From Hanleya hanleyi (Eukaryota; Mollusca; Polyplacophora; Lepidopleurida; Hanleyidae): DNA of 64,000 nucleotides. This document shows, piece by piece, positions 25,346 to 61,862 of this stretch. The translations under genes and the position numbers were made by a program. The notes beneath the pieces are model-generated. The model made no database searches. It worked only from the letters and a program-made list of their open reading frames with translations, and had not been told where the DNA came from. The stretch lies in contig JAVTVY010037230.1 in assembly GCA_036873755.1 (NCBI GenBank), positions 62,001 through 126,000 on the forward strand, read 5' to 3'. Within the stretch, counting starts at the first letter, position 1. Each line of letters begins with the position of its first letter.

Positions 25346-25600
25346 TTTATTTTAGATCTAGACGTCATTCGCAATTTGGAGTTTTCTAGAATGGAGAGAA
25401 GGTATTTCGAGTGCAATATATTATCAACATCAAGTATCCTGGATACCTTGGTAGGCCTAGACAGGTAGGAATGGATCGTGTTCATGAAAACTCCGTGGTG
25501 TTGATAGGAAATATTTTTGATCAATAATAACTGGATTATTTTCGACCTGAATTTGCCAAAATTAACAAAAATGAAAGCATAATGGTCTTTTATGGAATAG

Positions 25601-25984
25601 TAGGATAATTTTATCCATATTTATCATATGTACACCAGCTATCAATAGTAGGATAATTTTATCCATATTTATCATATATACACCAGCTATCAATAGTAGG
25701 ATAATGTTATCCATATTTATCATATGTACACCAGCTATCAATAGTAGGATAATTTTATCCATATTTATCATATGTACACCAGCTATCAATAGTAGGATAA
25801 TGTTATCCATATTTATCATATGTACACCAGCTATCAATAGTAGGATAATTTTATCCATATTTATCATATATACACCAGCTATCAATAGTAGGATAATGTT
25901 ATTCATATTTATCATATATACACCAGCTATCAATAGTAGGATAATTTTATCCATATTTATCATATGTACACCAGCTATCAATAG
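25601..25984. repeat. 48-bp minisatellite, eight units
   Basis: Units start at 25601, 25649, 25697, 25745, 25793, 25841, 25889 and 25937. Each reads taggataat(t/g)ttatcc, atatttatcatat(g/a)tacacc and agctatcaa. The period is a multiple of three, so a 16-residue periodic peptide is open on both strands (LLIAGVHMINMDKIIL on minus). This is a sequence-composition effect. Variants alternate T/G and G/A between units, showing higher-order amplification. Confidence 0.92.
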
Positions 25985-26196
25985 ATTTAAAAAACCCGCC
26001 CAAGTTAAAGAGACAGAAAGCAGAGTGCATGCATGAACGAACAGCTGCCTCAATACACCTGCTGGTGCTATCGGCCCAGCTCTTTCTTTGAAGGATTAAA
26101 TTGAAGTTTGTGCAAGTTAGGGATTAGCTGATAATAAATGGATGTTGTTCCAACAAAACTGACACTGAATTATGGAACATAGTCGCAGCTGGTTAT

Positions 26197-31297: not shown

Positions 31298-31659
31298 TGT
31301 AGTAAATACTGCCCTTTAGCGTATAGGTAGTCAAGGGTGGCCACCCTTAACAGGTTAGTCTAGCTTTGGCAGGGCCTCCAAATGTAGCTTAGCTACCATT
31401 AGGAGTAGGTTAGGCTAGCTTACGTAGGGTCTCCAAGCGCTATCTGGCTCCTGGAGTTATTGCCCCTGAGGGCGCTGCATGTAAACGGACCAATCAGGGA
31501 CGAGAAGACATAATTCCCGGGAGATACAAGTTAGAGAGAACACTCTTGCAGATGATCTCGAGGTAGTAAGACGTAGCACCGGGAGCTTCGAGGGATAATA
31601 TTCAACAGGTAAGGCCCTGTTCCGTACCGGTCTGTTACTATAGCGAGGAAATTACTTCA
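31298..31659 (+). repeat. Gypsy-1 5' LTR (362 bp)
   Basis: TGTAGTAAATACTG...GGAAATTACTTCA. Contains a CCAATCA box and an exact splice-donor consensus CAG/GTAAGG at 31616-31622. No clear TATA box or AATAAA. Confidence 0.93.
31616..31622 (+). promoter_or_regulatory. Candidate major splice donor in the LTR
   Basis: CAGGTAAGG context (ATTCAACAG/GTAAGG), conserved in both LTRs. In retroelements with a third ORF, a donor near the 5' end of the transcript is used to make the subgenomic mRNA. Use of this one is inferred. Confidence 0.5.
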
Positions 31660-31660
31660 C

Positions 31661-31672
31661 TGGAGTCAGAAG
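31661..31672 (+). other. Putative primer-binding site
   Basis: TGGAGTCAGAAG begins one base after the 5' LTR, where a PBS starting with TGG is expected. The matching tRNA could not be decided by eye. Confidence 0.5.
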
Positions 31673-34632
31673 TTTAAATAATCAGTTCGAATTGGTCCGT
31701 TTGTAGACAAATTTGGCCTGGTTGGCAACACTGGCGTAGTTTTGCCTTTTGTTGGTCGGCCATTTAGCACGTGTGTTGAAATTTTCCTGACAAAATTGGG
31801 TGAGGTTCTTTCTTTGGCCGGGTTTTTATTTATACTGTAATAAATAAGGAGTATATTGAGAACTCCTGTGACTTTTATTGTCTCTGAGAGACTATAAGTA
31901 TAACCGTGACAATTTTGTTTCGTGCAGTTTGCGACTCGGTCGGCGGCCATTTTTTCACGGGATTTTCCTCCCGTCTTTTGACGTGTCGAGTTGTCTCGTG
32001 GAACTTTGGTTACTTCTTTCGTTGACTGCTTCGTTGATTTCACGAAATTGAATAAAGGATTTATCGGATATTCTATCAAATTATACCGTCGTCGATAAAA
32101 TATTTTCGGACGGTTTTTAGTGTTCAATTTTCGTCACGATAAAATATTGATAAATAGTCGACGTTTCATAAAATTTTGGGCCTCCGTTAGTCTAGCGTTG
32201 ACAAATTCTTCCCTGTGGGGTTTATTCACGAACATACCTCGTTCAATGAGGTGACTTTAACAAGTATTTGATCATTTTGAGCTTCGTTTGTCGTGTAATG
32301 AGCGATAGGGTATAGTTTTTGTCAACTTACGGGAGTGACGGAGTTGTCTCCCATGGGTTGTGATTTCGACTTGGGTATCGATTTACCGGTGCGGGACACG
32401 GCCTGCCTGTTGGATTACTTTAACATTGCACCATAGCTTAGTTAGATTTTGTGAAATTCTTATTTATTTATTTTTTTTCTTCATTTATTACTTTGGTTGA
32501 TAGAATTGATAGGGAGATAGGGGTAGGGAAGTGGAGATATTCGGCTTGCATATTAATTTAGTTTATCGGTGCAATTGTTAAAGGCTGTAGGAGTCATTTT
32601 TGATTTTTTTTTTTTTTTTATATTGATTCATTGATTATTTTGCGTTATTTTGTCTGAGTTGTCCATGTGTATTGTCTTTGTCTGCATGACCCATGTGTCT
32701 TGTCTTTGTCTATACTTGTCGTGTATATCGTTAGTTTGTCAGTGTTTTGTGTTCCCTTGTCCATGTCCATTGTTTGTCTTGATCATTCAATAAAACCAAA
32801 AAGTTATTTTCTATTTTTTTTTTTTTTTTTTGTGTTGTCGTTTGTGTTTAGTTATTGGGGGCTAGGTGTAGGGATAGTAAGTAGGGATAGGCTAGGTTTG
32901 GGAAAGTTCTTCTGAATATATGAGCAGAGGATATTGTCCCCTGCTCGTATGTTGTATGGTTACATCCTGAACCATATAAATACCTACTGCACCCATTATA
33001 GGATGTAAATTTTCCGTTTAATTGGATTGGGTTGAACTTCGGATTGAGTTGTTGTTGTAGGTTTATGTCCACTCGATTTTTCGCGAGAATCGATTGGACG
33101 CAATCTACATGTGGAATTTATTTCTGATTTCAACCATTTCTAAACTCATTGGACACTTAGGTGAAGGAGTCACTCGAGTGTTATTCATCTAAATTTTACA
33201 TTGTAAAATTTTGGCTGTCTTATACTAGCAGTTGATGTTTGCCCGAGGAATACATGAATTGCTGATGTTTATTCTAATTTGGTGAGTTACATTTAAACTA
33301 TAGAGGCTGAATTTATCTCAGATTCTGTGGTGAACATTTTACACTGAGAGCCTTGATGGTGTTCTCAAGGGTGAGTGTTCAGTGTTGCTGAAATACTCAG
33401 AATTTATTGAATAATAAATTTTGAGTGTTAAATATTTTGGTAAGTATGTGTGGTGTTAGCAAACTTGGGCCATATCCAATCAGATATTGATTTGGTGTGT
33501 GTGGTTCATTGTTTGGTGTTGATTATAACACAAACTCTGATTGTATTTTGAGATTTCAGTGTTGACATATCAACATTGCACTCAATTTGATTGTGATGTG
33601 GTGGTGTTAAGTGGCACCATCTGATTTTGATTGAGTGTTTAGTGTTTATTCAAATGCTCATTCTTGTATTTACTTCGAAAAAGAAAAAAAAATTGTAGTT
33701 TTTTTCTTTTTTCACTTTGAGTGTTGACATATTGGCACTACACTCAATTACATTGTGGTCTTGTGGTGTCAAGTGGCACCATCCGACTTTCGTTGGGTGA
33801 TTGGTGTTTATTAAAACACAAACTCTTGTATTTACTTTGAAAAAAATAAAAAAAATAAAAACAATTGGTGTGGCATCAACACTGCACCCGATTAGAGTGT
33901 AATCGGGTATTGTTGGGCAACACCAGTTGATTTTGGGAACATTTGAAGGGCATCTATTAAATAGGCAACCATTATTTAGTTGATGATTGCAGAATGCCAA
34001 CTTGGTGAATTTTGATCCTATTTATTTTGGGAAATAGATATTGATCATTGATAACTAGGTCTCATTTGGTATTGATTGGCACCATTTGATGATTGTTTAG
34101 TATTCAACACCCGTACTATTGAGCTATTACGCATTAACTGGGCTGCTAGCGACTGCAGTTATTTTGTATATTATTTGACCTAGTTTTTGGACTTCATCAA
34201 AATTCACTGTAGTTCACTTAACTATTACCTTGTAGCTATTGCGTAAGGGATTAGCTAGTGTTTACTGTGAATGAGGGTGGGGTGTATTCTGGAATATTGG
34301 GCATAGAATTTTTGATTTATTATCATAAATTTTCTGTATGTCCATTTTGGACTTTGCCAAAATTCATCATCAGGTTTTTCGCTACAGCTGGATGGCTTTT
34401 GTTTGATATATTAGCTAGTCTTGTGCATTTAACTTGATATATAAGCCGTGATGGATATGCGCCCCATGTGATAATCTTTGGTGAGTATTTCAGCAGTTCA
34501 CCAGACCAGATTTTGTTTTGGTAAGTTGCGTGGTAAGTGGGTTGTTTGGATCAGTGAGTGTAATTCACTGCTCCTTTTCACGCGCCGCTGCTTGATTTTG
34601 ACGCCGCGTGTGATTCATATTCATTTTCGAAT
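31673..34632 (+). other. Gypsy-1 untranslated leader with internal repeats
   Basis: About 3 kb without a credible ORF. Between 33340 and 33960 there are 2-3 imperfect ~165-bp units (GTGTTGACATAT, CACTCAATT, GTGGTGTTAAGTGGCACCAT, CTTGTATTTACTT, an A-rich run), suggesting expansion of leader sequence. Several T-runs. Confidence 0.6.
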
Positions 34633-36876
34633 ATGTCGGATTACACAATTGACGTGTCCACCGCTACGGCTGCTGAGATACAGACAATAGAGGGTATTGG
34701 TAGAGTAAAGGCTGAAGCAATTGTCAAATGTCAGTCTGTGGACAAGTCTATTAGCTTTAGAGATTTTAGGCGCGCAACGCGTTTCTCTGCCTCACATATT
34801 GTAGCCATATTACGGGCTTCAGTTATTTCAGGGATAGATATAGAGGGTCCAGAGTATGTCTCTGCCCTGATGGATACCCAGGAGCAGCGAAATAATTTGG
34901 CAGTTGAACTTCAAATTCGGGAAAGTAGGTCTGAAATGGACACTTCAGTTAGGGATGTTAGAGAGCAGTTTAACTCGCTAAATACAAGAGTGGAACAAAA
35001 TTTGGATCACTATCGAAATCGTGTTAATCAGGTTGAGGAAGTAGTAGAGGCGATCAAGGAGGAAATAGGTACACATGGGGTTCAGTTAACTGAGCATGGT
35101 ACCCAATTGACTGGATTGAAATCTCAAGTGGGCGAGATGCATACTCAAGTGAGGGGGATGCATACGCAAGTGAGGGGGATGGATACTCAATTGAGGGGGA
35201 TGGATGATAGATTAGGGGCAGGGTTTACCAACATGGGGGACAAGGTTGGAATGCTGGTGACCATGATGCGTGGCCAGACGTCTACTCCAATGGTTAGGGG
35301 GGTGGGGGATACGAATGTAACGCAGTCTAGTGGCGTCGCTGGGGGGCAGCCAACTCCAGCATTGCCTGTTAATGGGGATGCATCTATTCCTGTTGGGTCT
35401 GATCTTATTGATCTTGAAAGTCAACAACCTCGGGTCAGCCAGTTGCAGACACCAGGGAGCGTAAACGTAACTGGAGGTAATCCACCGCCAATTTCGCGGA
35501 ATTTGTTATCCAGTGAATTACAACCTGGTGAACTGAATGAGATGACACCAGGTGGTTCATATATTGGGTTGCCTTATGTTAATTCTGGGGAGGATCGCCA
35601 GCCCCCTTGGATGCATAACATTGAGCGGGCGATTCCCCCTAGGGGAATCTATGGTAGTGGAGTTCCCCCTGTGGGCCCCGGAAGAGAGGCTCAGACTGAC
35701 TCCTCTAGTTATCATACTCCAGTCTCTCAAGTTAGTAGGGGTGAGGGTGATCGCGTGGGTACTCCAACCCCGAACATTTCACGACGCGGGGAGTTGGTTA
35801 CTCGAACTCCGCACCGCACGGAGGCGGAGATAGTTTTGCCGGCGCCTCTGCGAGACCGACATGTTAGGGGTCAGGTATAAGGTGCAACAGGTGGGGATTC
35901 TTCTTCCGATAGTGAGGATAGTGGGGCCGTTGGGTGCAGTCGCTTATCGGACTCCCAAACGTCAAGGCGTTCGAGATCTCCCACCAGTGAGGGGAGGTCA
36001 CGCCGTCGCAGTCGCAGTCGTCCACTGCCAAAGACATTGGTTTTTGGTGGTGTAGCGGATACTTGGATCCCATTTAAAATCAAATTTGAATTGGAGATGG
36101 ATAGTCGTGGTTGGGACAAGGCCAAATCCCTTAGGCGTCTTCGTGAATGTATGCATGGGAAAGCTATGGAATTCTATCGCGTCCTACCAGAGGCGGTTAG
36201 AAATTCATTTGACAAGTTAATCGAAGCTCTGGAGAAGCGCTATGGTAGGCAAGAGCCTGCACATGCGGTCAGACGACGTTTGCAAGTGGAGGAGCGGGGG
36301 GCTGATGATACATTGGGTGATTTTGCTGACCGTTGCATGCAGTTGGCTAGGGAAGGCTATCCAGGGGCTGCTGATGAAGTAGTCGATACTGTGGCCGTGG
36401 AACATTTTTTTTAGGGGTTGCCGTGAGCGTCAAGCGATCCGAAAACTGTACAGGAGGCATTGGCCTATGTTAATTCCTCCTTGCACAATCATCGTGCCAT
36501 GAGCGCTAAGGGTGTGAGATTGGTGACAACCGAGGCTGATGAAGCTGTTTGTCCCTGGACTGCCAAGTCTGACTCTGGAGGCTCGGGAGGATTTTCAGAG
36601 AAGCAGCAGAAGACCCTAAAAGCATTGCTTGCAGAGGCCTGTCGAGGGAAGCAGAGTGCGGTACCAGAGAAGGCCGCACCCTCTTCCCGGGGTTCAGCCC
36701 CACGCGGCTGGTCTGTCAATGTTATTCGCTGCTATACATGTGGAGAGGAGGGATACAAAAGTTTTCACTGTCCACAATCCTCTAATCTCTCCCGGTCACC
36801 GATTCGCTGCTATATCTGCGATGAATTAGGTCACATTAGCCGGAATTGCCCAAAGAAACACTCGGGAAACGAATAG
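34633..36876 (+). pseudogene. gag: Gypsy-1 gag with N-terminal HhH domain (broken)
   Basis: Starts ATG at 34633. Residues about 6-58 form a ComEA-like helix-hairpin-helix (IDVSTATAAEIQTIEGIGRV, then KAEAIVK), a fold that binds DNA non-specifically. A coiled coil with HTQVRGM heptad-like repeats (about 100-200), a Ser/Arg-rich linker, the retrotransposon gag domain (about 36030-36400) and two knuckles follow. CYTCGEEGYKSFHC has Tyr for the His ligand; CYICDELGHISRNC is canonical. Lesions: in-frame TAA at 35878, a T8 run at 36405-36412 that shifts the frame to a stop, and a second shift near 36437. Frame 1 resumes to 36876. HhH in gag is unusual; it could aid nucleic-acid packaging or integration (inference). 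Confidence 0.82.
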
Positions 36877-39800
36877 GGGCTGGTAGGCAAGGTCCACCAC
36901 CAGCCCAGGATTCCCAGTTAAGTGACCAGAAGGGGGTTGAACCAGCAACCGGAGCTAGTGCATCACCTGTGGCCTCTATTGAGGTCACGGAGTCTTCGCC
37001 AGTAGCCATTAGGGATGTGATTGTTTCACGTTCACCTGGTTGGACAATGACGGTGCCGGCGAAGGTCGGAACAGTTCCTGTGACCGCCGTTGTTGACACC
37101 GCTGCTCAGGTAACCGTCATGAGTCAAGACCTATTTGCCAGATTGAAGTTAAAGGGGCTGTCCACCACCCCAATAAGGTTGACTGGAGCATTTCAGGGAA
37201 CGTCCAGCATGGGGATGCTAGTGCAAAAGGTCCCCTTGTCTGTTTTGGACTTCCACTGTACTTGGGATGTAGTGGTAGCACCATTAGTGGACGAGCTCTT
37301 GTTGGGCTTTGATTTCCTGTCTGCTAATGGTTGCATTGTAGACTTCAATAAGAATGTCCTTGTGATAGGAGACATGAAAGTTTCGGCAACCCTTAAGCAA
37401 CAGGGAGATGGCGAACCGCTGTCTGTAAACCGGGTCACACTTGCTGAAACAGTAACCATTCCTCCCTTAACATCCCAGTTAGTCCGAGGTGTAATGCAGG
37501 GATACTCCCCTGCCCAATCTGGGTCAAATTTGGTCGATTATGTTTTGGAGCCCGTAGTCGATCAATCGGTCGTGATGGTTCCCAAGATGGCAATTCGCGG
37601 GGGTCCAATGGTTCCGATCTGCTTGCGCAACCCGAATGATACTGAGGTAAAGGTCATTCGGGGGGCCTGGATTGGAACCACTCTGGAATGTAGCGATCAC
37701 CCCGTGTCTGGCGATGTAGAGGGCGCATCTGTAAGAAAAGTAGATGTCCCTTTACCTGAAACCCTCCCAGAGTTCCTTGTTCCATTATACGAGGCAACAT
37801 GTGAGGGTTTGACCGAGGAGCAGGGAGCTGCTGTCAAGGACACACTGATTGAATTCCAAGACGTTTTCGCCAGTGGGGACTTGGATCTCGGTCACTTCGC
37901 CAATACCAAACATTGTATTAATACGGGCGATGCACGTCCCGTCCGGCAGCGTGTGCGACGATCACCAAGAGGTTTGAGAAGGAGGAGGGTAAACATCTCG
38001 AAGCTATGCTGGATGCTGGAGTCATTCGACCCTCAGAGTCTGAATGGGCTTCTGTCCCGGTTCTAATTCGTAAGAAGGACGGTTCTGTCCGCTATTGTGT
38101 GGACTTCCGGGAATTAAACGACAAAACGGTGAAAGACGCGTTTCCGCTGCCGCTGATAGACGAATATCTGGATGCGTTAGATGGGGCGGAGTACTTTAGT
38201 ACTTTGGATTTGGCAGCTGGCTACTGGCAGATCTCTATTGACCCTGCGGACCAGCACAAGACTGCCTTTATTACGAAGTATGGGCTTTTTGAGCATGTTC
38301 GTATGGCTTTTGGCCTCTGTAACGCTCCTGCAACGTTTCAGAGGGCGATAAATACGGTGCTCCGTGGCCTTACTTGGCGGGAAGTGCTGGCCTACCTTGA
38401 TGACGTCATTGTGGTGGGACGTACCTTTGAGAGTGCCCTGGCTAATTTGCGTCTTGTCCTGCAACGGTTTCGGGAACATAATCTCAAGCTGAAACCTCGG
38501 AAATGCTCCTTGTTTCGGCGGGAGGTGGAGTTCCTGGGTAAGACCGTTAGCCGGGGTGAAATTTCCATTACGGAGAGTAAAATTAGTGCCGTGCGCGATT
38601 GGCCGGTCCCCACGGATCGTACCGAACTACAGTCTTTTCTGGGGTTCGTGAACTACCACAGGGACTTCGTGGCCGGTTTCGCAAAATTGGCAGGTTGCCT
38701 GTATGAACTGACGGGGCCGAAATCTACCTTTCATTGGCAAACTCGGCACCAGGAAGCCTTCGAGAAACTCCGGGATGCAGTGATTAGTGCACCGGTTTTG
38801 GCATTACCCACTGCAGGGGATCCATTTATTCTCGATACCGATGCCTCTGACACTGCTATCGGGGCAGAGCTTGTACAGGTTCAGAATGGCGTGGAACGTA
38901 CCGTAGCATATGCCAGCCATAACCTTGCCCCGGCACAGCGCCGGTATTGCACGACTCGAAAAGAGCTTCTGGCAGTCGTGACATTTACCCGCACATTCCG
39001 GCATTACTTGCTTGGCAAACCTTTCCTGATACGTACCGACCATAATAGCTTGGTCTGGTTAACTCGGTTTCGTCATATTGAAGGTCAGCTGGCTAGGTGG
39101 CTTGAAGAGCTCAGTCAGTATGACATGACAATTCAACACCGAGCAGGGGTGAAACATGAAAATGCCGATGGACTCTCCCGAATTCCGGATTCCTTGCCAC
39201 TGTGCAATTGTTACGTGGCAGGAAGTGAGCCTACGTCACTCCCTTGTGGCGGATGTAAGTATTGTATTCGGGCCCATAACCAATGGGGACGATTCACAGA
39301 GGATGTGGATGATGTGGTGCCACTGGCTACGGTTGGGGAGACCGTGGCTGCAGTTCGGGCCCTCTCTGTGAACTTTGATGCTCCATTAGAACCTCCGTCC
39401 CAATCTCAGTCTGAACTCGATATGGTCTGGGAAGCGTTCTCCCCCAAAGAGTTGAGGGAGAAGCAATTGGCCGATGTTCAGCTTCGACCCGTGATTGACC
39501 ACTTGGAAACTGGTCAGACACCATCCCGGTTATTTTCCGGTGGCCCTGTAACTAAGCACTTGTGGCTTTGCCGGTCGTGTTTGAGGTTACAGGAGGGTGT
39601 CCTATACTATCAGTGGGATTACGGCATGTTTACGAAGTTGAAATTGGTGGTACCGGCGGCTCTTCGTTCCGAGGTATTGCGCTTGGTGCATGATGCCAAG
39701 TCAGGGGGTCATTTAGGCCAGAGTAAAACTGTGGCTTTGGCCAAACGGTCATTCTTTTGGCCGAACCTGACGCGGGACGTGGAGTTATATGTCGAGACAT

Positions 39801-41025
39801 GCGCCACCTGTAATGTGAACAAGAAGCCTAAGGTACATCCGCCAGGTGCATTGGGGTCCTACTATGCGGGGACTCCGATGGAGCGGGTTCACCTAGATAT
39901 CCTAGGACCGCTGATGTGCTCCGAGGGAGGCAATCGTTACATCTTAATGATGATCGATCAGTTTACAAAGTGGCTGGAGATCTGCCCTTTACCTGAGCAA
40001 TCGGCTGAAAACATCGCTAAGGCTTTCCTAGAGGGTTTCATTGTTCGGTTTGGTGTGCCCTTGCAGGTACACACCGACCAGGGCCGGAATTTTGATGGTA
40101 ATCTGTTTTCTGAATTCTGCAGGGTTTTCAAGGTGACCAAGACACGCACCACACCGTACCGCCCGTGCTCTAATGGGCAGGTGGAACGGTGCAACAGGCT
40201 CCTTCAATTGGTGCGGTGTTACCTTGAGAGCCGTCAGTCGGATTGGGATAAACGCTTGCCATTGATCGGCATGGCTATTCGGGCAATGCCCAACAGAGAC
40301 ACTGGTTTCTCTCCCAATCTTTTGATGTTAGGGAGGGAAGTGACGATGCCAGTGGATATCCTGTTGGGTGTCGCGGGTGTGAACCTCCAGCAATCTTCAG
40401 GGGGGGGGAATACCTGAAGCAGCTTCTACTCCAGCTGGAGGAGGTTCATCGTCTGGCCCGTGATAAGGTCGGGGCATGTCAGTTGCGCCAAAAACGTACC
40501 TACGACTTGAGATTGGAGCAGAAAGTCTATAACGTAGGCGATTTAGTTTATCGCCGGGACTTGGCTGTTAAGGTAGGTCAGAGTAAAAAGTTGCGGCCTA
40601 TTTTTGCTGGCCCGTATATTGTTGTGGCTGTTCTGGGCCCCTGCTTGTATCGAGTTGAAAGCAGACGGGGTACGCATGTTTGGCACCATGACGTTCTTCG
40701 TCAGTGCCGGGACAGAGATGTACCCCTGTGGGTCCGGCGGAGACGTCACACTATACTTGGGGTAACCGATTTGGGAAAGAATATTGTAGGGGAGGAGGGG
40801 AATCAAGTTAATCAGAACCCTGCTCCACCCTTGTTTACATCTGATGTTCCGGACTTAGACTTGGGGATGTTGTTTGGGACACCGAAGCGGAAGAGGTCCC
40901 ATCGTAGGGGAAAAAAGCAGGTCTCGGACTTGAGTTCAGACTTGAACGAAGTAATTGGACCGCCGCGGGTAACTCGCGCTGGACGAAAAAGTCGTCCCCC
41001 TCAGTTTTTGGGTGTGGAGAGTTAA
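36846..41025 (+). pseudogene. pol: Gypsy-1 pol: PR-RT-RNaseH-IN (two frameshifts)
   Basis: Overlaps the gag end by 31 bp in another frame, as if expressed by frameshifting. Protease VVDTAAQVTVMS (DTA in place of DTG). RT from about 37960 with FRELN, AFGLCNAPATF and YLDD at about 38394. RNase H TDASD...TDHNSL. Integrase HHCC (HDAKSGGHLG...CATCN), then the catalytic Asp in LDILGPL, Asp in HTDQGRNF and Glu in NGQVERCN. A C-terminal GDLVYRR...GPYIV SH3-like tail and a basic KRKRSHRRGKK end follow. One-base losses or gains near 37962 and at the G9 run 40400-40408 break the frame into three ORFs (36846-38066, 38006-40417, 40483-41025). Confidence 0.9.
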
Positions 41026-41354
41026 AGGGAATTTGTTTCACATTCATTGATGTGTCGCGCGTTCGCGTGAGACAACTGGCCTTGGGTGGCATGCTGTGTT
41101 TCGCCATTGTTCACTGGGGAGCTTGTCCATGGCGCTCAACATTTTGTACATATGTTTTTTGGTTTATTTTTTGATAGTTTGTGGTCTAGGTAGTTCAGTT
41201 GATGTGTAGCATGTTTGTGCCCTGCATGCTCAGGTTTGTACCCTTGCATGCTCATGTTTGTGCCCTTGCATGCTTATGTTGTGACGTTGCATGCTCATGT
41301 TGTAGCGTGGAGTAATGTGATGGATTGATGTAACTCTCAAATGTTGTATAGAAT

Positions 41355-41377
41355 AAGTGTTGTTTCTTTTGTTGTAG
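41355..41377 (+). promoter_or_regulatory. Candidate splice acceptor before ORF3
   Basis: Polypyrimidine tract TTGTTTCTTTTGTTGTAG ending at 41377. No ATG lies between it and the ORF3 start 48 bp later, so a transcript spliced from the LTR donor would present ORF3 as its first ORF. Inference from motif and position. Confidence 0.5.
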
Positions 41378-41425
41378 ACACACTTCTCAAGAGTATTTAG
41401 ATAGCACCTCTCACAAAATTCTAAA

Positions 41426-43402
41426 ATGGACAAGGGGAAAGATAATGGGCAGGATACGGATAATGGGAATGGGGGACTAGTAGTTAGGGAGATGGAGGGA
41501 TGGGTAGTAGTAGATTTAGAAGAGGATCAGGCGCAGGGTGGGGTAGAGGGTGCAGTAGGTTGGGCAGGTGTAACGGGGGAGGACTTGGATAGGGCTTTCG
41601 GGGGGTGGGCTAGTGTAACGGGGGAAGACTTGGATAGGGCTTTTGGGGTAGGGGGTAGGGTTATGGTAGAGGGCGTTCCATTTCGGGATATGGAGGATTT
41701 GGTGCCCCCTCCAGTTCCCGAGGTGGAGCACCCTAGTAGGTCTGCGGAGGTGGTTCCGGGGGATGGTGTTGGTTGCGGCCGTCCCCTGGTGCCACAAGCT
41801 CCTGTAGATGATTGGGTTCCCCTGGTGGGGTTGGGTGGGCCAGTTGGTGTGGTCCCTGTGGATGGTACCATTAGCGGCCATCCATTGGGGCCACAGCCGG
41901 TAGTGCCTGCTCCGGCTCCTCTGGGGGGACCCACTGAACCACCTGTAGTGGTCCCAGGGGAGGGTACCACTGGTGGCCGTCCCCTGGGACTGCAACTAGG
42001 ACCTCTTCCCTGTGACGGTCGGTGGATTGCCCAAATCAACTCCGACTGTCGCAGGAAAGATTGTCCTATTTGTCAGCTGCCTCTCGGCAAGAAGCTCCGG
42101 CGACATCTGGGCTGGATACACTTTCCAGCCTGGATGTCGCCTGATAGATTCTGCTGGGAGTGTGGCCATCGCTCGTCCTCTCTGGGCTATAGTTTCCGGC
42201 ACGGAGCGGGCGAGCATCACTCTATGGAGGAGTGGGCATTCACCGATGACCACTGGTGGCGGTGGGTGCCCCTCCTTCACGGGTTCCTCCAGTCCCTGAT
42301 GGAGATCCTGTGGGTCAGCACGTACCAGGCCTTGCTGGATTACGTGTTGGCCAACAGGCTATTTCCACAGGAGCTGGAGGTTGACCCCACGGGGAACTGT
42401 ATGGCCCTAATGGTGGCCTTCGATGCTTCCCGCGGGGTCACTACCCACACCTTGAGTGTCTCCCCTCCGTCCTCGGTGTCCGCTCTGATCAGTTGGCAGG
42501 TGCTGGGACGCGTCCTGGCGTTCCTGTCAGCTGCTCAGAGGGAGCGGCTGGTCGATCTACAGCGATTGAGCGGCGCTCTGGGCGTATGCCCCACACCGAG
42601 GGCGGTGGATGCTCATGCCCACCTTGACCTGCTCCTGAAGGACCTGGGGATCTTCACCAGTCTGGAGGAACTTCGGGAGTTGGTCGGTGTGGAGTATGCT
42701 GAGCGGTTGGAGATCACTTCGGTGATCTGTAACTTGGTCTTCCCGAACAGGTCGGAGCCTGGTGCCCTCCGGCGTCTTCTGGAAGACCCAAGAATACAGA
42801 CCACCTATGGGATCCACCCCCATCAGGCCAGTCTTCCGGTTTCAGGGTCATCCATGAGGGCCTTAGTTGCCAAACTGGATGACCCTCGATGCCGTGGTCT
42901 GGGGGAGGTGGGTCTCGGCTGGCATGGACACGAGACGGACATAGAGCGCCGGCGGCAGGAGGATTTCCTGAAAAAAGTCCTGCCGTTGGCGGTGGAGCGG
43001 AATCTCCCTGTAGTTATTCACTGCAGGGAGAAGAAGCCTGGTCAGTCTTCTGCCCATGTCAGATTGCTTGGCCTCCTGGGGGCTACTTTGCCTCCGGGGT
43101 GGCCGATACATGTTCACTCCTTCAGTGGGAACGTCGCCGTTGCCCGAGCATGGGTGAAGCGCTTCCCGAACGTCATGTTCGGGATGAGCGTGTTGCCTCT
43201 TCGCGAGGGCAATGGCGACAACGATGAAGTTCTCAGGGAGGTGGGCATGGGTCGGCTACTCCTGGAGACAAATTCTCCATACCTGAAGCCCCCCGGAGGC
43301 CGTAATCCCAACACACCATGGGGAGTGTGGCCAGTGGCGTGCTGGGTGTCCAGGATGGTCAATTTGCCCCCCCTGGGTCATCCTGGAAGTGACCCGCCGT
43401 AA
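41426..43402 (+). CDS. Gypsy-1 ORF3: zinc-finger / TatD-like hydrolase fusion (658 aa)
   Basis: Intact frame from an ATG in AAAATGG context. Residues 1-80 are acidic and Gly-rich with a duplicated VTGEDLDRAFG; about 100-195 is Pro/Gly-rich with three PLGxQ-type repeats. Two Cys2His2-like motifs lie at about 209-260 (CPIC...H-x4-H; CWEC...H-x4-HH). From 393 to about 640 is a TatD-type TIM-barrel hydrolase: HAH (397/399), GE-x-GL (Glu494), IHCR (His532), H-x-HSFSG (His564), and LETNSPYL, where the usual metal-ligand Asp of ETDxPyL is Asn616. TatD family members are metal-dependent 3'-5' nucleases. A retroelement could use one on cDNA ends or host DNA, or the protein may only bind (inference). 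It follows pol by 400 bp on the same strand. Confidence 0.85.
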   Translation: MDKGKDNGQDTDNGNGGLVVREMEGWVVVDLEEDQAQGGVEGAVGWAGVTGEDLDRAFGGWASVTGEDLDRAFGVGGRVMVEGVPFRDMEDLVPPPVPEVEHPSRSAEVVPGDGVGCGRPLVPQAPVDDWVPLVGLGGPVGVVPVDGTISGHPLGPQPVVPAPAPLGGPTEPPVVVPGEGTTGGRPLGLQLGPLPCDGRWIAQINSDCRRKDCPICQLPLGKKLRRHLGWIHFPAWMSPDRFCWECGHRSSSLGYSFRHGAGEHHSMEEWAFTDDHWWRWVPLLHGFLQSLMEILWVSTYQALLDYVLANRLFPQELEVDPTGNCMALMVAFDASRGVTTHTLSVSPPSSVSALISWQVLGRVLAFLSAAQRERLVDLQRLSGALGVCPTPRAVDAHAHLDLLLKDLGIFTSLEELRELVGVEYAERLEITSVICNLVFPNRSEPGALRRLLEDPRIQTTYGIHPHQASLPVSGSSMRALVAKLDDPRCRGLGEVGLGWHGHETDIERRRQEDFLKKVLPLAVERNLPVVIHCREKKPGQSSAHVRLLGLLGATLPPGWPIHVHSFSGNVAVARAWVKRFPNVMFGMSVLPLREGNGDNDEVLREVGMGRLLLETNSPYLKPPGGRNPNTPWGVWPVACWVSRMVNLPPLGHPGSDPP

Positions 43403-44295
43403 TGCCTGTCTGTTGTACAAATTACCTTTGTAGGCAGGCGTTCGGTGGGTCGCTTCATGGGTCGGCTCCACTCCCATGGGTGTGGGAGGGGGAACAGATC
43501 ACAGGGTTGTATGGGAGACAGTCAAAAAGAAAAGGGGGAGGGAAAGTGGGAGGAACATCTAAATAAAATTAAGTAATAACCAGGGATACCATTGGGGACT
43601 TCCTTGGGCTACTTCTCTGCCCACAGGATATTATAGTTTTTCAGGTTTTCTGTAACCGGCTTCCTGGTAAACTCAGCTGCAGGTTACCAGTACAGTTTTC
43701 AAGTTTCCTGCTCAAATTAGCTGCGGGTTACCAGTACAGTTTTCAAGTTTTATGCCACCGGTTTCCTGGTAAAACAAGCAGGGAGTTACCGGTATAGTTT
43801 TTTATGACAGCTATCAGGGAGTAACTAAGTTATGTCCTGTGTGGCGGGTTAGCCTTGCCTACCCTGTGACCTGGGTTTGACCCTGTGACCTGGGTCTGAC
43901 CCTGTGACGTGGGTTCAGGATGGTATCCCTGGGCGGGATGGGACCATTGGTGACCCATCCCGTTAATTTTGGGGGGTGGTGGTAGGTGCGGAACTTTAGT
44001 ACTGGTACCGTTGTCGACAGTACAGTTCTGCGGGTGGGTGTTAGGAAATATAATGGGTGGGATTTTTAGACTTTTTAGGGGAGAAGGTTATTATTCTTAC
44101 ACCTTTTTCCCCCTTGGAGCGGTCATTTATTAGAGGGTATTTTAGGCGAAGTGCGAGGACTAGATGTCCTCGCACAACCCTATTTTATAGGGTATTTTAA
44201 TTGAATAGGTCTTTATACTGTAGAGGGGCCCATGGTGCAGGATGCCCAGGGCAGGGTTGGGGGTGGTTTTCACTTAGGAAATTGGACCCTTCCCC
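43403..44295 (+). other. Gypsy-1 3' untranslated region
   Basis: Contains three copies of a GTTACCAGTACAGTTTTCAA-like unit (43680-43805) and a repeated GTGACCTGGGT (43866-43915). No ORF of note. Confidence 0.6.
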
Positions 44296-44315
44296 AAAAA
44301 GAAAAGGGGGACGGG
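44296..44315 (+). other. Gypsy-1 polypurine tract
   Basis: AAAAAGAAAAGGGGGACGGG immediately before the TG of the 3' LTR, the expected plus-strand primer site. Confidence 0.85.
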
Positions 44316-44678
44316 TGTAGTAAATACTGCCCTTTAGCGTATAGGTAGTCAAGGGTGGCCACCCTTAACAGGTTAGTCTAGCTTTGGCAGGGCCTCCAAA
44401 TGTAGCTTAGCTACCGTTAGGAGTAGGTTAGACTAGCTTACGTAGGGTCTCCAAACGCTATCTGGCTCCTGGAGTTATTGCCCCTGAGGGCGCTGCATGT
44501 AAACGGACCAATCAGGGACGAGAAGACATAAGTCCCGGGAGATACAAGATCGAGATAGTACTCTTGCAGCAGAACTCGAGGTAGTAAGACGTGAGCACCG
44601 GGAGCTCCGAGGGATAATATTCAACAGGTAAGGCCCTGTTCCGTACCGGTCTTGTACTATAGCGAGGAAATTACTTCA
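44316..44678 (+). repeat. Gypsy-1 3' LTR (363 bp)
   Basis: Matches the 5' LTR with roughly 16 differences, several clustered between the CCAAT box and the splice donor. Confidence 0.93.
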
Positions 44679-46198
44679 GTCCTTTGACGTCACAGGAACT
44701 GGCAAAGGCCAAACTATTGTGGATTCAAAACGTTCAACAAAGGAATTTCAAAGATGTCATTGAAGCCATCCAACACAGCAAGAGAAATAATCTCCAGCAG
44801 CAGCTAGGTCTACAGTTGGATCCAGAAGAACTACTTCGTTGCCATGGGAGACTGAGAAACGCAGAACTTTCAGCGGGTGCGAAATCACCTATATTGCTCC
44901 CAAAATTTGACCCGTACACAACTCTGGTGATAGAGAAGTATCATAAGAGCATTCTCCATTCAGGTGTTTCACAAACACTGGCGCAAACACGACAGGAATA
45001 TTGGATTCCTCAAGGTCGATCGGTGGTGAAGAAGGTCCTACGGAACTGTACGATTTGTCGTCGACACGAGGGCGGACCGTACAAAATGCCAGTTATGCCG
45101 CCATTGCCTAAACAAAGAGTAACTCAGTCTGCTCCTTTCACGTACACAGGACTTGACTACCTTGGACCCCTCTATGTAAAGGACGCGACAGAAGTGACAA
45201 ATGTTTGGGTGTGTCTCTTTACTTGCATGGCTGTTCGGGCTATACATCTAGAGCTGGTCAGAGACATGTCCACCCCTCCATTTTTACTCTGTTTGCGACG
45301 ATTCGTTGCTCGTCACGGCGCACCTAAGCAGATCCTATCAGACAACGCACCACAGTTCAAGTTGGCCAAAACAGTCATCGACAATATGTGGAAACAGATA
45401 GTTCTGAACCCAGAGGTGAAAAATTATGTGGCGGAGCAAGGAGTGATGTGGCAATTTATAACAGAGTTATCCCCCTGGATGGGAGGGTTCTACGAGAGAC
45501 TAGTTGGACTCGTCAAAAGATGTCTACGTAAAGCCATTGGCAGGACTTTGCTGACTGTTGACCAGTTACAGACATTTCTTCACGAAGTACAAGCTGTGGT
45601 AAACTCAAGACCTTTGGTTTATGTCGATGACGACATAAATTCCAACACGACAATCACACCATCAGACTTTCTTACATTGAATCTGAAAACTGCATTCCCT
45701 GAAGTGGCCATTGATCTTACCGATCCAGATTACCAACCAACGTTTAGTTCAGCAGACAAGGTACTCCAGATGTGGAGAAAAGGACAAAGGCATCTGGAAG
45801 CATTTTGGAACTCCTGGAGAAATGAGTATCTGACTAGCCTAAGAGAACGGACACAATCGCATTTGAAGGGACCCAGGAGTCAGTCTATCTTTGAACCAAA
45901 AGCAGGTGATATTGTTCTGGTAAAGGATGATCTTCCTCGTGCTGCATGGCGACTCGGGAAAATACAAAGTGTGATAGCTGGTAGGGAAGGTAATGTTAGA
46001 TCTGCAACGATTCTGCTGCCTTCCCAGAAAAAGATCAACAGACCAGTGTGCTTACTCTATCCTATTGAGTGTCCAAATACCCCAACTGATGAAACATACC
46101 CGTTGAAACAGAAACGCCCAGAAACTGTAACTACAAGACCACCTGCAAGGTCAGCTGCTGTTGAAGCTAGAAAACTGATATCACAGCAGCTAAACTGA
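44679..46198 (+). pseudogene. BEL/Pao retrotransposon integrase fragment
   Basis: Begins mid-gene directly at the Gypsy-1 LTR end. The frame runs uninterrupted for more than 500 codons: LTSQELAKAKLLWIQNVQ (typical entry to the Pao integrase), HHCC zinc domain (H-x3-H... CTIC), catalytic core with Asp in TGLDYLGPL, Asp in LSDNAPQF and Glu in GGFYERL, then the C-terminal Pao domain (GDIVLVKDD...RAAWRLGKI) and a stop. RT, gag and both LTRs are missing. The 3' side passes straight into Polinton-like sequence. The intact frame suggests a fairly recent truncation. Confidence 0.85.
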
Positions 46199-46304
46199 TT
46201 TTTCGTGCACCGGAGCACCGTCAATGTGATCTGCTACGCCGAGTTTGACAACATCATTCAAGTGGACAAGGCGCGCAACGTCCTGTGTGACTTCTCCACC
46301 TAAC

Positions 46305-46778
46305 ATGGATACAGACCAGATAACCACCGTGCTGGAGAATGACCCAGAGACACGTATGGTCTTTCAAGGGGTGTTCGCCCGAGATGTGTTCCCATTAGAC
46401 CGTATGTATCCTGCTGCTTACGTTCTCAACACGGACCCGATGGATCGGCCCGGTGAACATTGGGTGGGCGTGTACTTGACAGAACAGCAGGGCGAATACT
46501 TTGACCCGTACGGCCTGCCGCCCCTCCATCCCGATTTAGCAGACTTCATGGATCAAGGCACAGAGACGTGGTGTTGGAACAGTCAAACGTTGCAAAGCCT
46601 GACCAGTAGCGTGTGCGGACAATATTGCTTGTTTTACCTGTACCATCGATGCCGGGGAAGACCCTTATCTACCATCGTACAGATGTTTGACGAGTACCCC
46701 AAGGCCGAGGACCGCGATGTACTCGTATATGACTGGGCCGCCCATCATTTCAATGTACAAGCCCCGTTCTGGGCTTAA
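46305..46778 (+). CDS. Polinton adenain-like cysteine protease (157 aa)
   Basis: MDTDQITTVLENDPETR start. An upstream in-frame ATG-equivalent at 46245 would add 20 residues without family resemblance. Catalytic signature of the adenovirus/Ulp1-type maturation protease: His in GEHWVGVYL, Asp in GEYFDPYG, Gln in WNSQTLQS and Cys in SVCGQYCLFYL, in the right order and spacing for a family of about 150-200 aa. In Polintons this enzyme is thought to process capsid proteins. The frame is intact. An AATAAA follows 140 bp downstream. Confidence 0.88.
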   Translation: MDTDQITTVLENDPETRMVFQGVFARDVFPLDRMYPAAYVLNTDPMDRPGEHWVGVYLTEQQGEYFDPYGLPPLHPDLADFMDQGTETWCWNSQTLQSLTSSVCGQYCLFYLYHRCRGRPLSTIVQMFDEYPKAEDRDVLVYDWAAHHFNVQAPFWA

Positions 46779-49203: not shown

Positions 49204-49265
49204 TTAAGCCACTACTTAGAAGGCATAGATAACTGGACTCTATAACTAATTTAAGGGCAATCACC

Positions 49266-50354
49266 ATGTCCAATTATGATGAAAAGAGTGCCACAGAGCT
49301 CTATACCGAGTTATGTAACATATCACAAGAGGATTGCCAAGGTTACCTGGTAAGGGCACTGGGATTGAGACAACAGATACTAGCAGCATCTAAGGAAAGT
49401 AGTGATGATTCACTTCGGTATAATCCAGAACTTGTCAAGGCTATGTTTATGCACTCAGTTTACACCGGTTTCGCAGAAGACAACATCCGTTTCGAAATTA
49501 GATCATTGCTGGAGAATCCAACCGTTAGTGATCAAGCATTGATTCACAGACTGAACCAAGTATCTCGGCAAGAGAGGGAACGTGTAGCTAAAATAAAAGG
49601 TAGTAGTAGGGGGAAAACAGGAGTCTACAGTGTAGAAACAGAGTCAGAGATACAGAAACTGAATGCATTGAGAGCAGCAGATCAGAAGGAGATTGCTGCT
49701 TTGAGAAAAGAAATTACTGATCTGAAGAATTTGGTGACAAAGCCACCCATGGCCAGGAAATATAACCAGGAACAAGACCCACCTCGTAGGGAGTTCAAGA
49801 ACCCAGGGTGTTCGGCCTGCAGAGAGAACCACATGGCTTCGCAATGCGAACACTGCTGGTCCTCTGGAAGCGGCGATCATTATAAGGCTGGTTGCATTCA
49901 AAAACGACAAACGAGGATGAGGGACAGTGAATATAACCCACCAAGTATGCATGAACTGCGTGGCAGCGTCTGGCAACTATCTCCACGTCAGAAGACCAAC
50001 ATGGTCAGACTCGTAGGGGATAGATGTATGCTGAATTGCTCAATCGCGGGTGTGCCAGTGAATGCACTTTGGGATACTGGGGCACAAGTTTCCATGATTC
50101 CTGGCGACATGATGACAAAAGAATTCCGAGGTCATACAGTGCGTCCTTTGGATGAACTAGTGGAAGGAGACCTGACCATATATGCAGCAAATGGCTCTGA
50201 AATACCATTCCAGGGCTGGGTTGGACTATATTTTGCCATGGACGCTGGTGAGAGAGGAATAACCGTCCCCTTCCGAGTCTGTAGCCACCCTGAAGTGAGA
50301 CAGCCAATCATAGGTTATAACGTGATCCAACAGTGGGATGGTAAAGCCCTGTAA
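49266..50354 (+). pseudogene. Gypsy-2 gag C-terminus and protease
   Basis: YDEKSATELYTELCNISQED (gag), a coiled coil (about 125-160), a knuckle-like CSACRENHMASQCEHC region, then the retropepsin motif ALWDTGAQVSMIPG and a flap-like IIGYNVIQQW. Out of frame with the preceding gag part. The pol linker 50355-50881 is broken by a frameshift and stops. Confidence 0.82.
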
Positions 50355-50881
50355 AGTAATTTGAAGTCGGCCATGCCAACTGCCCAGACCAAGGAAAGCC
50401 GAGCAGTGGTAAATCTTATTCATCGGGGACAAGACACCTTGAGTGCTGTGAAAATTGGAAGACAAGATGTGATCATTCCAAAGGGTGAGGCTGTACCTCT
50501 GAGATGTACAACACACGCCAACACAGAACTGACTCAAGAGGCATTATTGTTCCAAACGAGGAAATGACCTGGCTAGAGGGGATAAACCGTCGTGAAACTC
50601 TCGTCACCATTCCCAGGGGTTCCTGTTGCCACATTAGAGTTATGGCAGAGAATACAACTGAACATGCCATGGTAATATCAAGACATACGAAGATAGGGGC
50701 CATTCAGCAAGTTAAGTCGGTGATTCCCATCCCCATGGACAAGCTGGAGACACCAACTGCTGAGTAGGGTTCTGAAAGAGAACCTGAGATACAGGGAAAG
50801 AGGGCTGAATCTTCATGGGATCCGCCTATTGATCTGGAGAAAACTGACCTGACAGAGACACAAAAGAGAGAGGTTAAACAA

Positions 50882-52885
50882 ATGCTACGTGAAGAGTCTG
50901 ATGCTTTTGCACGTGAAGATGAAATAGGAACTGTGCCAGATTTGGTGTTACGTATCAACCTACAAGACCAGGTTCCGGTTCAACGAAATTATGTGTCGAT
51001 TCCTCCACCACTCCACCAAGAGGTAAAAGATTACCTGACAGATCTTCTGAGGCGTGGGTGGATCAAAAGAAGCACATCCACTTACTCGAGCCCTGTTGTG
51101 TGTGTGAGAAAGAAAGATTCCTCCCTGAGACTGTGCATAGACTATCGCCAGATGAATTTAAAAACCCACCCTGAGCGACAGCCAATTCCAAGAATCCAAG
51201 ATGCGTTGAATACTCTAAAGGGGAAATATTGGTTCACCCTTTTAGACCAAGGCAAAGCCTACCACCAGGGCTTTGTGGCCGAAGAATGTCGGAAGTCGAC
51301 TGCCTTTATTACCACTTGGGGCCTATTCGAATGGGTTCGTATCCCGTTCGGTTTGACAGGTGCACCAGGAGCCTTTCAAAGATTTATGGAATCGACATTG
51401 GAGGGTCTTCGTGACATAATGTGCTTGCCTTACCTTGATGATGTCTTGGTGTACAGTGACAGCTTCCACGTCCATCTTCAGCATGTTCGACAGGTGATCC
51501 GGAGGCTGAAAAGCAAAGGAATAAAGTTGAAACCATCCAAGTGCCAATTTTTTCAACGCGAGATACGATACCTTGGACATCTGGTGTCCGAGAAGGGCTA
51601 TCGCATGGATCCTGCTGATAGCGAAGCTGTGCTCGCACTGAAGGAGAAAGTTCCAACCTCGGTGGGTGACGTACGACAAATGCTGGGATTCATTGGCTTC
51701 TATCGAAAGTACATTCCAGACTACTCAAGGAGAGTGAAACCCATTTTTGACCTACTGAAGGTAGACCATGAGCAAAATCCTATTCGGAACCAGCGGAAGA
51801 AAGGACGAAAATCAGGGAAGGGAGGACAAGCCCCATCAACACAGAGAGTTCAATGGACGCAAGGAGATAACTTGTTGGAACCTTGTGTGATGGTGTAACC
51901 AGATTTTGAGAAACCCTACATCGTCCATACAGATGCATCTCATCAGGGCCTAGGGGCTGTTCTGTATCAGCGACAGGATGATGGTAGACTGGGAGTGGTT
52001 GCTTACGGGTCCCGCACATTGACACCTGCAGAGAAAAACTATCCCTACCACTCAGGAAAACTGGAGTTATTGGCACTGAAGTGGGAAGTCTCCGAGCGCT
52101 TTCGAGATTACTTGTATTACGCACCTTCTTTCGACATTTACAGTGACAATAATCCGGTGACCTACATACTTACCACGGCCCGACTGGATAGCACCAGGCA
52201 TCGTTGGGTATCGGAGCTGGCTGACTTTAATTTCACTATCCACTACAAGCCAGGAAAGCTGAACACTGATGCTGACGGTCTGTCACGCATGCCACTTGAC
52301 ATCTGCCAGTACATGCCTGAATGTACAGAGACCTTACCTTCAACAGTGATCAGCACTTCAGTACATACAGTGTTGGCACAACAGGAAATGAGGATTCCCT
52401 TGCTAGCATCATCTTCAGCAGCGGAACCAGAGGACAGTTGGGTGGTCAGGGAGTTGGCAACCATCTCAAAGCGTGAACTAGTCGAGTCGCAGAGCAATGA
52501 CCCAGTCATCACGGAAGTATTGAGATACGTGCGCAGTGATCGGCGGCCAACACTGAAGGAGACCAAACAGGCTCCTCCAGGTGTGGCTACGATGCTACAT
52601 GAGTGGAGAAGATTACAGATTGGTGAGGATGGACTGCTGTATAGGAAGACGGTTGTGAATGGCCAGGATAGGAGTCAGCTGGTTCTCCCAACCAAGTACC
52701 ACAACCAGGTCATGCAGGAGCTCCACAACAAGATGGGACACCTTGGAGTGGAACGTGTTTGTGCATTAGCCAGAGACCGGTTCTATTGGCCCAGAATGGC
52801 CCGAGATATAGAGTATCACATCACCAAAGCCTGTCCTTGTATCAAGAACAAGATCCCCACAGTTATGGATAAGGCATCTCTTTAA
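50882..52885 (+). pseudogene. Gypsy-2 RT, RNase H and integrase zinc domain
   Basis: RT with [23 protein letters not shown] and YLDDVLVY; RNase H with HTDASHQGLGAV and YSDNNPVTY; integrase HHCC part HNKMGHLGVERV...KACPCIK. A single in-frame TAA at 51896-51898 separates RT from RNase H, and another TAA at 52883 stops before the integrase core. Confidence 0.88.
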
Positions 52886-59683: not shown

Positions 59684-60934
59684 AGTAGTAGTATAAGCGT
59701 GAAAGCCCGAGTATTGACACCAGGGGGCGCTGTTGAACTACTTGGTGACGTCACTTCCTGTTTTGGTCAAGTTACCGGAAGTGACCTTTGACCCCTGCGC
59801 ATGCGCACAACAACGGATATCAATAATGGTGCGCAGGGGTCAAAGGTCACTTCCGGTCACGTTACCGGAACCGGAAGTGACGTCACAAAGTAGGTCAACA
59901 GAGCCCCCTGGTTCACGCTTATGTTCAATCAGATATTAATAATGTTGCGCAGGGTTCAAAGGTCACTTCCGGTTCTGGTCACGTGACCGGATCATTGGTG
60001 TCAATTTGGTCAACTGGTGTCAATTTGCTCTTTAAGTGCACAAAAGTCAACGCGCGGTCATTTGCTGTTATGGTGCGCAGGTCTCAAAGGTCACTTCCAG
60101 TCAGGTGACCGGCCTCCAGGAAATGACCCCGGGGAATGTATTCCTCCGTGGTAATGCGGTCATTTCCTGCGGTGATGTTGTCGCGGGAAGAAGCCTCCGC
60201 GGACAGAAAGTAGTCCCATGTCAACCAGACTTCAAATACGCGGGTGTTCGGGAGATTCTCCGGGAATGTCCGAAGATCTTCGGCAATGTCCGCTCATCTA
60301 CGGCAATGTCCGGTCATGTCCGGTAGGTAATCGAAGTCAAGATACCCCAGTGACTTCCAATGTTAATCTCTCGGAATGCACGTCATCAAACATGGTCCCC
60401 GACAATTTCGCCAGCTATATTCTCAGCATAAATGGCAAGTGGGGAACCCTCAGTTTCTCCACATAGCCATGCAGCAAGAGAAAGGGAATCCCCGAAACCG
60501 TATTGGCACGAAAAAATACATGAATACATGGGAAGTGGGACTTATAGTAATAAAGATAACCTACAGGTGTTGTACGATGTTATTATTACGAGTCTATGAT
60601 CGGCGCGACCACAGGGTCGAGCGTGTCGTGTCCAGTATGTCTCTGCAAAAATTAAACAAAACAAATGGCGGTGCTTGCTGTGGGAAATCCCCTTTTGGCA
60701 TCGATCGTGCTGCCATCTGGAGACAAGGAAGACACCTCTGACTAGGCGAAACCTCTGTGGGCCGAATTCCGGGTGATCTCTCCCGATTCGAACATTTGCG
60801 AATATGCCCAATGGGGAACCCACACATGGCCATTTGCGGTATGGAGTGTGGCATCTTGTTTTTTTTTCGTCTCACCGCATAGAACACGATGATAGGGGTC
60901 TCGAAGCCATTGGTTGAAATTTGTTGAAAACTTT
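59684..60934 (+). repeat. Mini-Polinton left inverted arm (~1.25 kb)
   Basis: Pairs with the right arm. Contains an extra block (about 59925-60065, with TGTGTCAATTTGGTCAACTGG-type repeats) missing on the right. The inner end lies inside the ATPase gene, so the last ~65 codons are part of the arm. Confidence 0.85.
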
Positions 60935-61812: not shown

Positions 61813-61862
61813 GGTACCCGGTCAGAGGGTGGACACAGACTAAGACTAATGGTGTACAAACG

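Follow-up and report, generated by a model that had tools for sequence, protein, structure and literature searches.

Does a Ty3/Gypsy retrotransposon of Hanleya hanleyi carry a TatD nuclease as a gene of its own, or did such a gene come to lie in one copy by chance? The question arises from a stretch of 64,000 nt (assembly GCA_036873755.1, 2.48 Gb; contig JAVTVY010037230.1, positions 62,001-126,000; hereafter the window), in which 31298-44678 is a copy of a long terminal repeat (LTR) retrotransposon family with Ty3/Gypsy gene order. An earlier note, made from the sequence alone, had described paired LTRs around protease, reverse transcriptase, RNase H and integrase (PR-RT-RH-IN), a ComEA-like helix-hairpin-helix (HhH) at the start of gag, and a third open reading frame (ORF3) with TatD motifs between integrase and the 3' LTR. 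LTR alignment and Pfam bore out the first of these, Pfam scores above the cut-off in other copies the second, and Pfam and Foldseek the third. With high confidence we regard ORF3 as an element-borne gene under selection. The best explanation overall, which we hold to be probable though far from secure, is a Gypsy family with an HhH-Gag, a frameshifted pol and a spliced accessory TatD nuclease.

Searches of the whole assembly revealed at least 79 matches to ORF3 (67 of 872 first-look candidates scored) and at least 57 to the RT-IN part of pol (56 of 35,685 candidates scored). Besides the window, 25 ORF3 loci were read, taken from the top of the score-ranked list. Where flanks were read, the integrase C-terminus lay upstream of ORF3 in 6/7 and 17/18 loci, the misses being L005, at a contig end, and L026; an LTR lay downstream in 7/7 and 15/18 loci, with misses at L010, L018 and L025. 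Among the pol matches listed, 29 copies including the window formed a main family (at least 95% identity to the window pol). A listed ORF3 followed within 4 kb on the same strand in 22 of these 29, window included, and the distance was 1.0-1.1 kb in 17 of the 22. Of the seven main-family pol copies without a listed ORF3, a contig end lies no more than 1.9 kb away in four, and the other three lack an explanation. L062, an older main-family copy, has an ORF3 about 75% identical with integrase directly upstream. Both LTRs were complete in 4 of 10 copies examined, with identities of 99.7, 95.6, 98.6 and 100%, and the flanks of these four read ATAA/ATAA, GTAC/GTAA, CTTC/CTTC and ATAT/ATAT, an exact 4-bp duplication in three. 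The LTR identities, target duplications and co-occurrence of modules therefore indicate that the family moved recently, as one unit.

Counted from a matched start, the ORF3 protein has 643-669 amino acids in 19 of the 24 other copies compared, L002 aside. Pfam identified TatD_DNase at 110.9 bits, where the cut-off is 27, with an E value of 8.7e-32, and Foldseek ranks 1 to 13 were all TatD-family structures, including 6l25 (2.6e-9) and human TATDN3 (9.2e-9). The structure model behind this search, built from six sequences, had a mean predicted local distance difference test (pLDDT) score of 57.9 overall and was confident over the TatD core only. Among 21 aligned rows, the metal ligands H397, H399, E494 and H564 were present in all, and H532 and D616 in 20 each. 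The TatD motifs named earlier are all present in the window copy, but the Asn of 'ET-N' stands in place of the metal-ligand Asp at D616, which is Asp in 20/21 rows; the sole row without it is L002, whose ORF3 protein is identical to that of the window. A Pfam scan to E 1 returned TatD_DNase only, with no DEDDy (RNase D-like) domain, and Pfam found no env family in ORF3 (profile scans covered Pfam, NCBIfam and PHROGs only).

Selection was examined in 21 of 25 extracted ORF3 loci, after four had been dropped: L021 because of a stop, L024 because it is short, L025 because it is broken and L027 because its 5' part is missing. The median pairwise ratio of replacement to silent substitution rates (dN/dS) of the TatD domain was 0.147 (163/210 pairs with enough silent change), with individual pairs up to 1.01. 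In the same 21 copies, the finger and helical part of ORF3 gave 0.186 and its low-complexity N-terminus 0.36. Values for gag were 0.135 for the capsid (12 rows), 0.212 for the nucleocapsid, 0.328 for the HhH (13 rows with the window) and 0.534 for the coiled coil, and the integrase C-terminus gave 0.318 (15 copies). TatD variants common to at least two copies comprised 54 silent and 28 replacement changes, and singletons 21 silent and 37 replacement changes, against a neutral expectation of 2.54 replacements per silent change. This pattern is that of a gene under constraint as long as the lineage replicates, with decay setting in once a copy has inserted.

A sister family comprised, among the matches listed, at least 27 pol copies 82-83% identical to the window pol, with frames open over 1047-1674 amino acids and a stop in two copies. 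No ORF3 of the main list lay within 4 kb of these pol copies (0/27). Absence of ORF3 from the sister family was nevertheless rejected: in the three copies read (L063, L065 and L066), a diverged TatD region, 40-44% identical, was found downstream of integrase, so that the figure of 0/27 reflects search sensitivity. All three share an identical frame break and a change of the first His of HxH to Tyr, and their open frames of at least 110 amino acids contain no zinc-finger pattern. The sister gag start, in one upstream stretch, is HhH-like (34% identical, tblastn 9e-14; Pfam 17.5 bits, under the cut-off). Since the sister family has both an HhH-like gag and a broken TatD, both modules most likely predate the split of the two families. 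ORF3 is accessory, not indispensable, the nuclease having decayed in a sister family that is still multiplying.

A further diverged ORF3-like gene was observed on contig C30431 (L028:7670-9901 plus L029:1-285). It is open over 838 amino acids, 58% identical, with HAH changed to HAN, and has a dS of 1.0-1.5 and a dN of 0.3 against the active family. No gag or pol match lies upstream within L028, and weak LTR-like stretches occur on both sides. It is possibly a domesticated or long-lived solo ORF3.

The HhH at the start of the window gag (residues 8-32) matched Pfam HHH with an E value of 5e-5, its 23.4 bits falling narrowly short of the cut-off of 24; L032 and L045, both of the main-family copies scanned, scored 26.7 and 24.0 bits. 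Twenty upstream stretches where gag was expected were requested, one lying beyond its contig, and the HhH was present in 14 of the remaining 19; the stretches of L030 and L038 end inside gag, and those of L033, L035 and L048 have no gag. These HhH counts, like the LTR counts above, refer to stretches read around individual loci and are not genome-wide. In 5 of the 14 other HhH-bearing copies, gag forms one stop-to-stop frame of 766-770 amino acids from the HhH to the second zinc knuckle, and in the remainder it is shorter or broken. The structure model of the HhH had a mean pLDDT of 51.8, too low for use.

Gag and pol overlap by about 30 nt, with pol in the -1 frame. The heptamer G GGA AAC in this overlap is intact in 14/14 stretches holding the search anchor (19 read), and pol would be synthesized by -1 ribosomal frameshifting at this site. 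For ORF3, an acceptor-like tract ends TTGTAG/AC in the window, and TAGACA is found no more than 75 nt 5' of the ORF3 ATG in 21/21 copies. The donor-like CAGGTAAGG inside the LTR was present in 34/35 LTR matches, of which a few may be double-counted in overlapping stretches. These candidate donor and acceptor signals, together with the analogy to retroviral env, suggest a spliced ORF3 mRNA. Short repeated TGCATGCTCATGTT-like units were seen by eye at 41200-41310, between pol and ORF3.

The window copy itself is a worn, decayed member of the family (Table 1). Its LTRs, 362 and 363 bp long, are identical at 347 of 362 aligned bases with one gap. Gag is interrupted by an in-frame stop (35878-35880) and, at a T run, by a frame break; two further frame breaks lie in pol, and a C run close to the 3' end of ORF3 marks another, beyond which the frame continues in other copies. 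Only three homopolymer runs of at least 7 nt lie between 34633 and 43402, each at one of the frame breaks, so that base-calling error is a possible cause of these three. Flank comparison revealed no target-site duplication at this copy, and no tRNA primer site was identified in the element. The leader holds two 139-nt repeats at a spacing of 162 (33554-33854). LTRs with TG...CA ends were found in the window copy and C6977, and three copies of another subgroup have LTRs ending TTTA, where the script placed the ends. Around ORF3, contig C13902 matches the window at 99.9% of 4,975 aligned columns; further upstream the identity is 94-97%, and on this pattern the contig may be an allele or near duplicate. 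The decay of this copy, the two C2H2 fingers of ORF3, the -1 frameshift site and the splice-like signals had all been missed by the earlier note.

Table 1. Features of the element copy in the window (window positions, element reading left to right)
Feature	Position	Strand	Evidence or remark
5' LTR, TG...CA	31298..31659	+	repeat detection, LTR alignment
Splice-donor-like CAG/GTAAGG inside LTR	31606..31614	+	
Leader, about 3 kb, LTR to gag, 36% guanine-cytosine	31660..34632	+	
gag N-terminus, ComEA-like HhH	34633..34950	+	Pfam HHH
gag coiled coil and Pro/Gly-rich part, stop-terminated in window copy	34951..35880	+	
gag RS-rich and capsid-like part	35881..36414	+	DUF1759/PNMA/Retrotrans_gag matches weak, below cut-off
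gag nucleocapsid, two CCHC knuckles, out of frame with capsid in window copy	36427..36876	+	
pol: aspartic protease, then frame break	36840..38066	+	Pfam
Slippery site G GGA AAC in gag/pol overlap, predicted stem 3'	36864..36870	+	
pol: reverse transcriptase (RVT_1), RNase H (RT_RNaseH), integrase H2C2 and core (rve)	37922..40417	+	Pfam
pol: integrase C-terminus, GPY-like, SH3-like, after frame break at G run	40252..41025	+	Pfam
Splice-acceptor-like pyrimidine tract ending TAG	41358..41377	+	48 nt 5' of ORF3 ATG
ORF3, 658 codons in window copy, between integrase and 3' LTR	41426..43402	+	
C2H2 zinc finger 1: C213 C216 H227 H232	42062..42121	+	ligands in 21, 21, 21, 19 of 21 rows
C2H2 zinc finger 2: C243 C246 H259 H264	42152..42217	+	ligands in 21, 20, 21, 21 of 21 rows
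TatD nuclease domain	42605..43363	+	Pfam, Foldseek, ligand residues, dN/dS
Polypurine tract directly 5' of 3' LTR	44296..44315	+	read from sequence
3' LTR, TG...CA	44316..44678	+	repeat detection, LTR alignment

A homology search with the whole of ORF3 gave no match, probably through low-complexity words filling the candidate list. A search with residues 195-658 found a 667-amino-acid Mytilus edulis protein annotated 'tatD' (P0001; 7.9e-29), which aligned with the finger, helical and TatD parts (126/480 columns identical). A profile search added P0006 and P0007. P0008 is a TatD protein of 348 amino acids with two Gag-like CCHC zinc knuckles. In a tree of 18 rows, ORF3 and the zinc-finger or extended TatD proteins P0001, P0002, P0006 and P0007, along with P0008, stood apart from eight presumed bacterial TatD proteins with support of 100/99; branches inside this group are long and its inner order is not settled. 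P0001, P0002, P0006 and P0007 may be host or element genes. Viral contigs scanned with ORF3, RT-IN and gag contained no relatives, and a scan with alignment A1 returned one ordinary, presumably bacterial, TatD gene only.

In the mechanism that we propose, Gag carries an N-terminal HhH and a coiled coil ahead of capsid and nucleocapsid. A spliced mRNA would most likely yield the third protein, which joins two C2H2 fingers to a TatD metallo-nuclease and is encoded at the position of retroviral env. ORF3 would most likely serve as an accessory nuclease: with its fingers it would bind nucleic acid, and while the element is reverse transcribed or integrated it would trim 3' ends or else the RNA in RNA-DNA hybrids. 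TatD proteins are metal-dependent 3'-5' exonucleases on single-stranded DNA and RNA, a function that also appears in the NCBIfam name. Vertebrate TATDN2 has been linked to R-loop resolution (PMC12709183, in excerpt). On these two grounds 3' ends or hybrids would be the most plausible substrate; that ORF3 acts on those of the element's own replication intermediates is a tentative proposal, and we infer both nuclease activity and substrate from sequence. HhH-Gag and TatD possibly act jointly, as the earlier note proposed, and either might have cDNA or target DNA as its substrate.

Other readings of ORF3 were weighed against the accessory nuclease. A host gene or nested insertion at this locus alone, which the window copy by itself could not exclude, is refuted by the matches across the genome (at least 79) and by the linkage to integrase, LTR and pol, and its probability is negligible. 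It is very improbable that the element carries a host TatD gene without benefit. Animals have host TatD genes, LTR elements capture genes, and function was lost in the sister family, all of which would suit a passenger; set against this are the ORF3 beside 22/29 pol copies and beside integrase in L062, the relics in the sister family and the purifying selection on shared variants. That ORF3 is by now a nucleic-acid-binding or structural protein in which catalysis is irrelevant seems improbable. Ligands have changed in the window (Asp to Asn), in L010 (third His to Asp) and in L025 (the same His to Arg, in a row outside the counts), as they have in C30431 and, at the first His, in the three sister copies; however, each of the six ligand positions is intact in 20 or 21 of 21 main-family rows, and no other part of the protein is as constrained as TatD. 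The main rival, in our judgement unlikely, is a role in counter-defence: ORF3 would degrade small RNAs of the host, or other nucleic acids that serve silencing or immunity, and selection would act via escape from silencing and not on the steps of replication. ORF3 stands as a separate third gene, is probably spliced and has fingers of its own, as would suit an accessory regulator. It decayed in one family, and the divergence between families is arms-race-like, ORF3 being far less similar than pol, although decay of the sister ORF3 explains part of this. QatD, an anti-phage TatD, matches P0001, P0002, P0006, P0007 and P0008 far below the cut-off, and not ORF3, and serves only as an example of TatD in conflict systems. 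Against counter-defence, the TatD domain is strongly conserved within the family.

Several points weigh against the accessory nuclease that we favour. The dN/dS pairs are not independent, and score-ranked sampling favours open frames. The copies are closely related, so that conservation of the splice-like and slippery sites is weak evidence by itself. The window copy is without one metal ligand and the C-terminal frame of ORF3. Finally, the sister family, with TatD broken in all three copies read, still has at least 27 pol matches; in that family the nuclease must be either dispensable or provided in trans.

The earlier note had read the two modules as possibly captured, looked for support in recurrence across loci and species with TatD under purifying selection, and held that the idea would fail if other copies lacked the modules or ORF3 were a host gene at one locus. 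Within this genome that refutation fails: HhH-gag, pol and TatD recur between LTRs at many loci, TatD is under purifying selection, and the sister family has homologues of both modules, that of TatD broken. The expectation for other species was answered by protein relatives only.

Elsewhere in the window, four further features were observed. Directly after the 3' LTR, at 44663-46778, lies an integrase ORF (H2C2, DUF5641), which we take to be of BEL/Pao type, and the ORF after it has a weak match to adenovirus endoprotease (Peptidase_C5), its 18.4 bits falling below the cut-off of 21.3. A second Gypsy-like element with protease and reverse transcriptase lies at 49233-52885; its pol is 30% identical, and by eye its gag start has no HhH. 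At 60742-61821 on the minus strand, an open frame with a C2H2-like start and the P-loop GPTGCGKTS has no Pfam or PHROGs match to E 0.001, and presumably resembles the packaging-type ATPase of a DNA mobile element. Frames at 25562-26095 are open on both strands over a tandem array with units of about 48 nt by eye.

The earlier note had also not known the arrangement to be described. Among the papers listed in the literature searched, which left out most subscription journals and Repbase, we found no description of a TatD gene or of a ComEA-like HhH in the Gag of an LTR element; a nuclease as ORF3 is already known from bdelloid rotifers, as described below. Statements on the papers cited here refer to excerpts of their text. 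Among the leads followed, a wheat paper was rejected, 'TatD' matching only via gene names such as TaTDP1. PMC5408686 names, in the excerpt, a TATDN2 retrocopy only and offers no lead to a TatD in an LTR element. The legend of a figure of the giant squid Hox cluster places a TATDN2-annotated gene beside a POGK transposon-like gene, both non-Hox, and is a lead only (PMC6962438). Troyka elements encode no envelope protein, and the passages of PMC12440569 at hand name no further gene.

Compared with the TatD/TATDN family, ORF3 has the same HxH...E...H...H...D ligands, the profile match and the best fold matches; it differs in that a mobile element encodes it and in its added N-terminal part, which holds two C2H2 fingers and a helical stretch. 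Genes annotated as TatD in invertebrate genomes may belong to transposons. We consider it possible, though doubtful, that the zinc-finger TatD proteins of several invertebrates, such as that of Mytilus edulis, belong to a widespread Gypsy lineage with a nuclease, directed at hybrids or 3' ends, at the env position. This nuclease would work with HhH-Gag on element nucleic acids or against host silencing, and lineages would change from having the nuclease to lacking it, or back, as the sister family may illustrate. That family, with its broken copy in the same genome, provides a natural comparison for the role of the nuclease.

Among LTR elements, Ty3/Gypsy (Metaviridae) members with an env-like ORF3 share with the present family the LTRs, the PR-RT-RH-IN order and a probably spliced ORF between integrase and the 3' LTR, whereas the third ORF here encodes a zinc-finger TatD nuclease. 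Cer1 of C. elegans is likewise an LTR element with an extra nuclear protein, CERV, whose modelled H domain is described as a helix-hairpin-helix with a possible leucine zipper (PMC10309623). The HhH of Cer1 thus lies in CERV and is named by shape, whereas here an HhH sequence motif of ComEA type starts Gag. The closest parallel is provided by the Vesta and Juno LTR elements of bdelloid rotifers, in which ORF3 encodes a DEDDy exonuclease (Rodriguez et al. 2017, PMC5408684). In both cases a nuclease is the third ORF, 3' of pol, and its presence varies, several families having it and others not; as to an env-like role of the DEDDy ORF3, the authors are doubtful. The bdelloid enzyme has an RNase D-like DEDDy fold, not TatD, and the available passages make no mention of an HhH-gag. 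With the present family, the nucleases that LTR elements have acquired come to include a further enzyme fold. Unlike the bdelloid case, in which the excerpt of PMC5408684 reports no significant departure from neutrality intragenomically, the TatD domain, with a dN/dS of about 0.15, offers sequence evidence of selection for keeping the nuclease.

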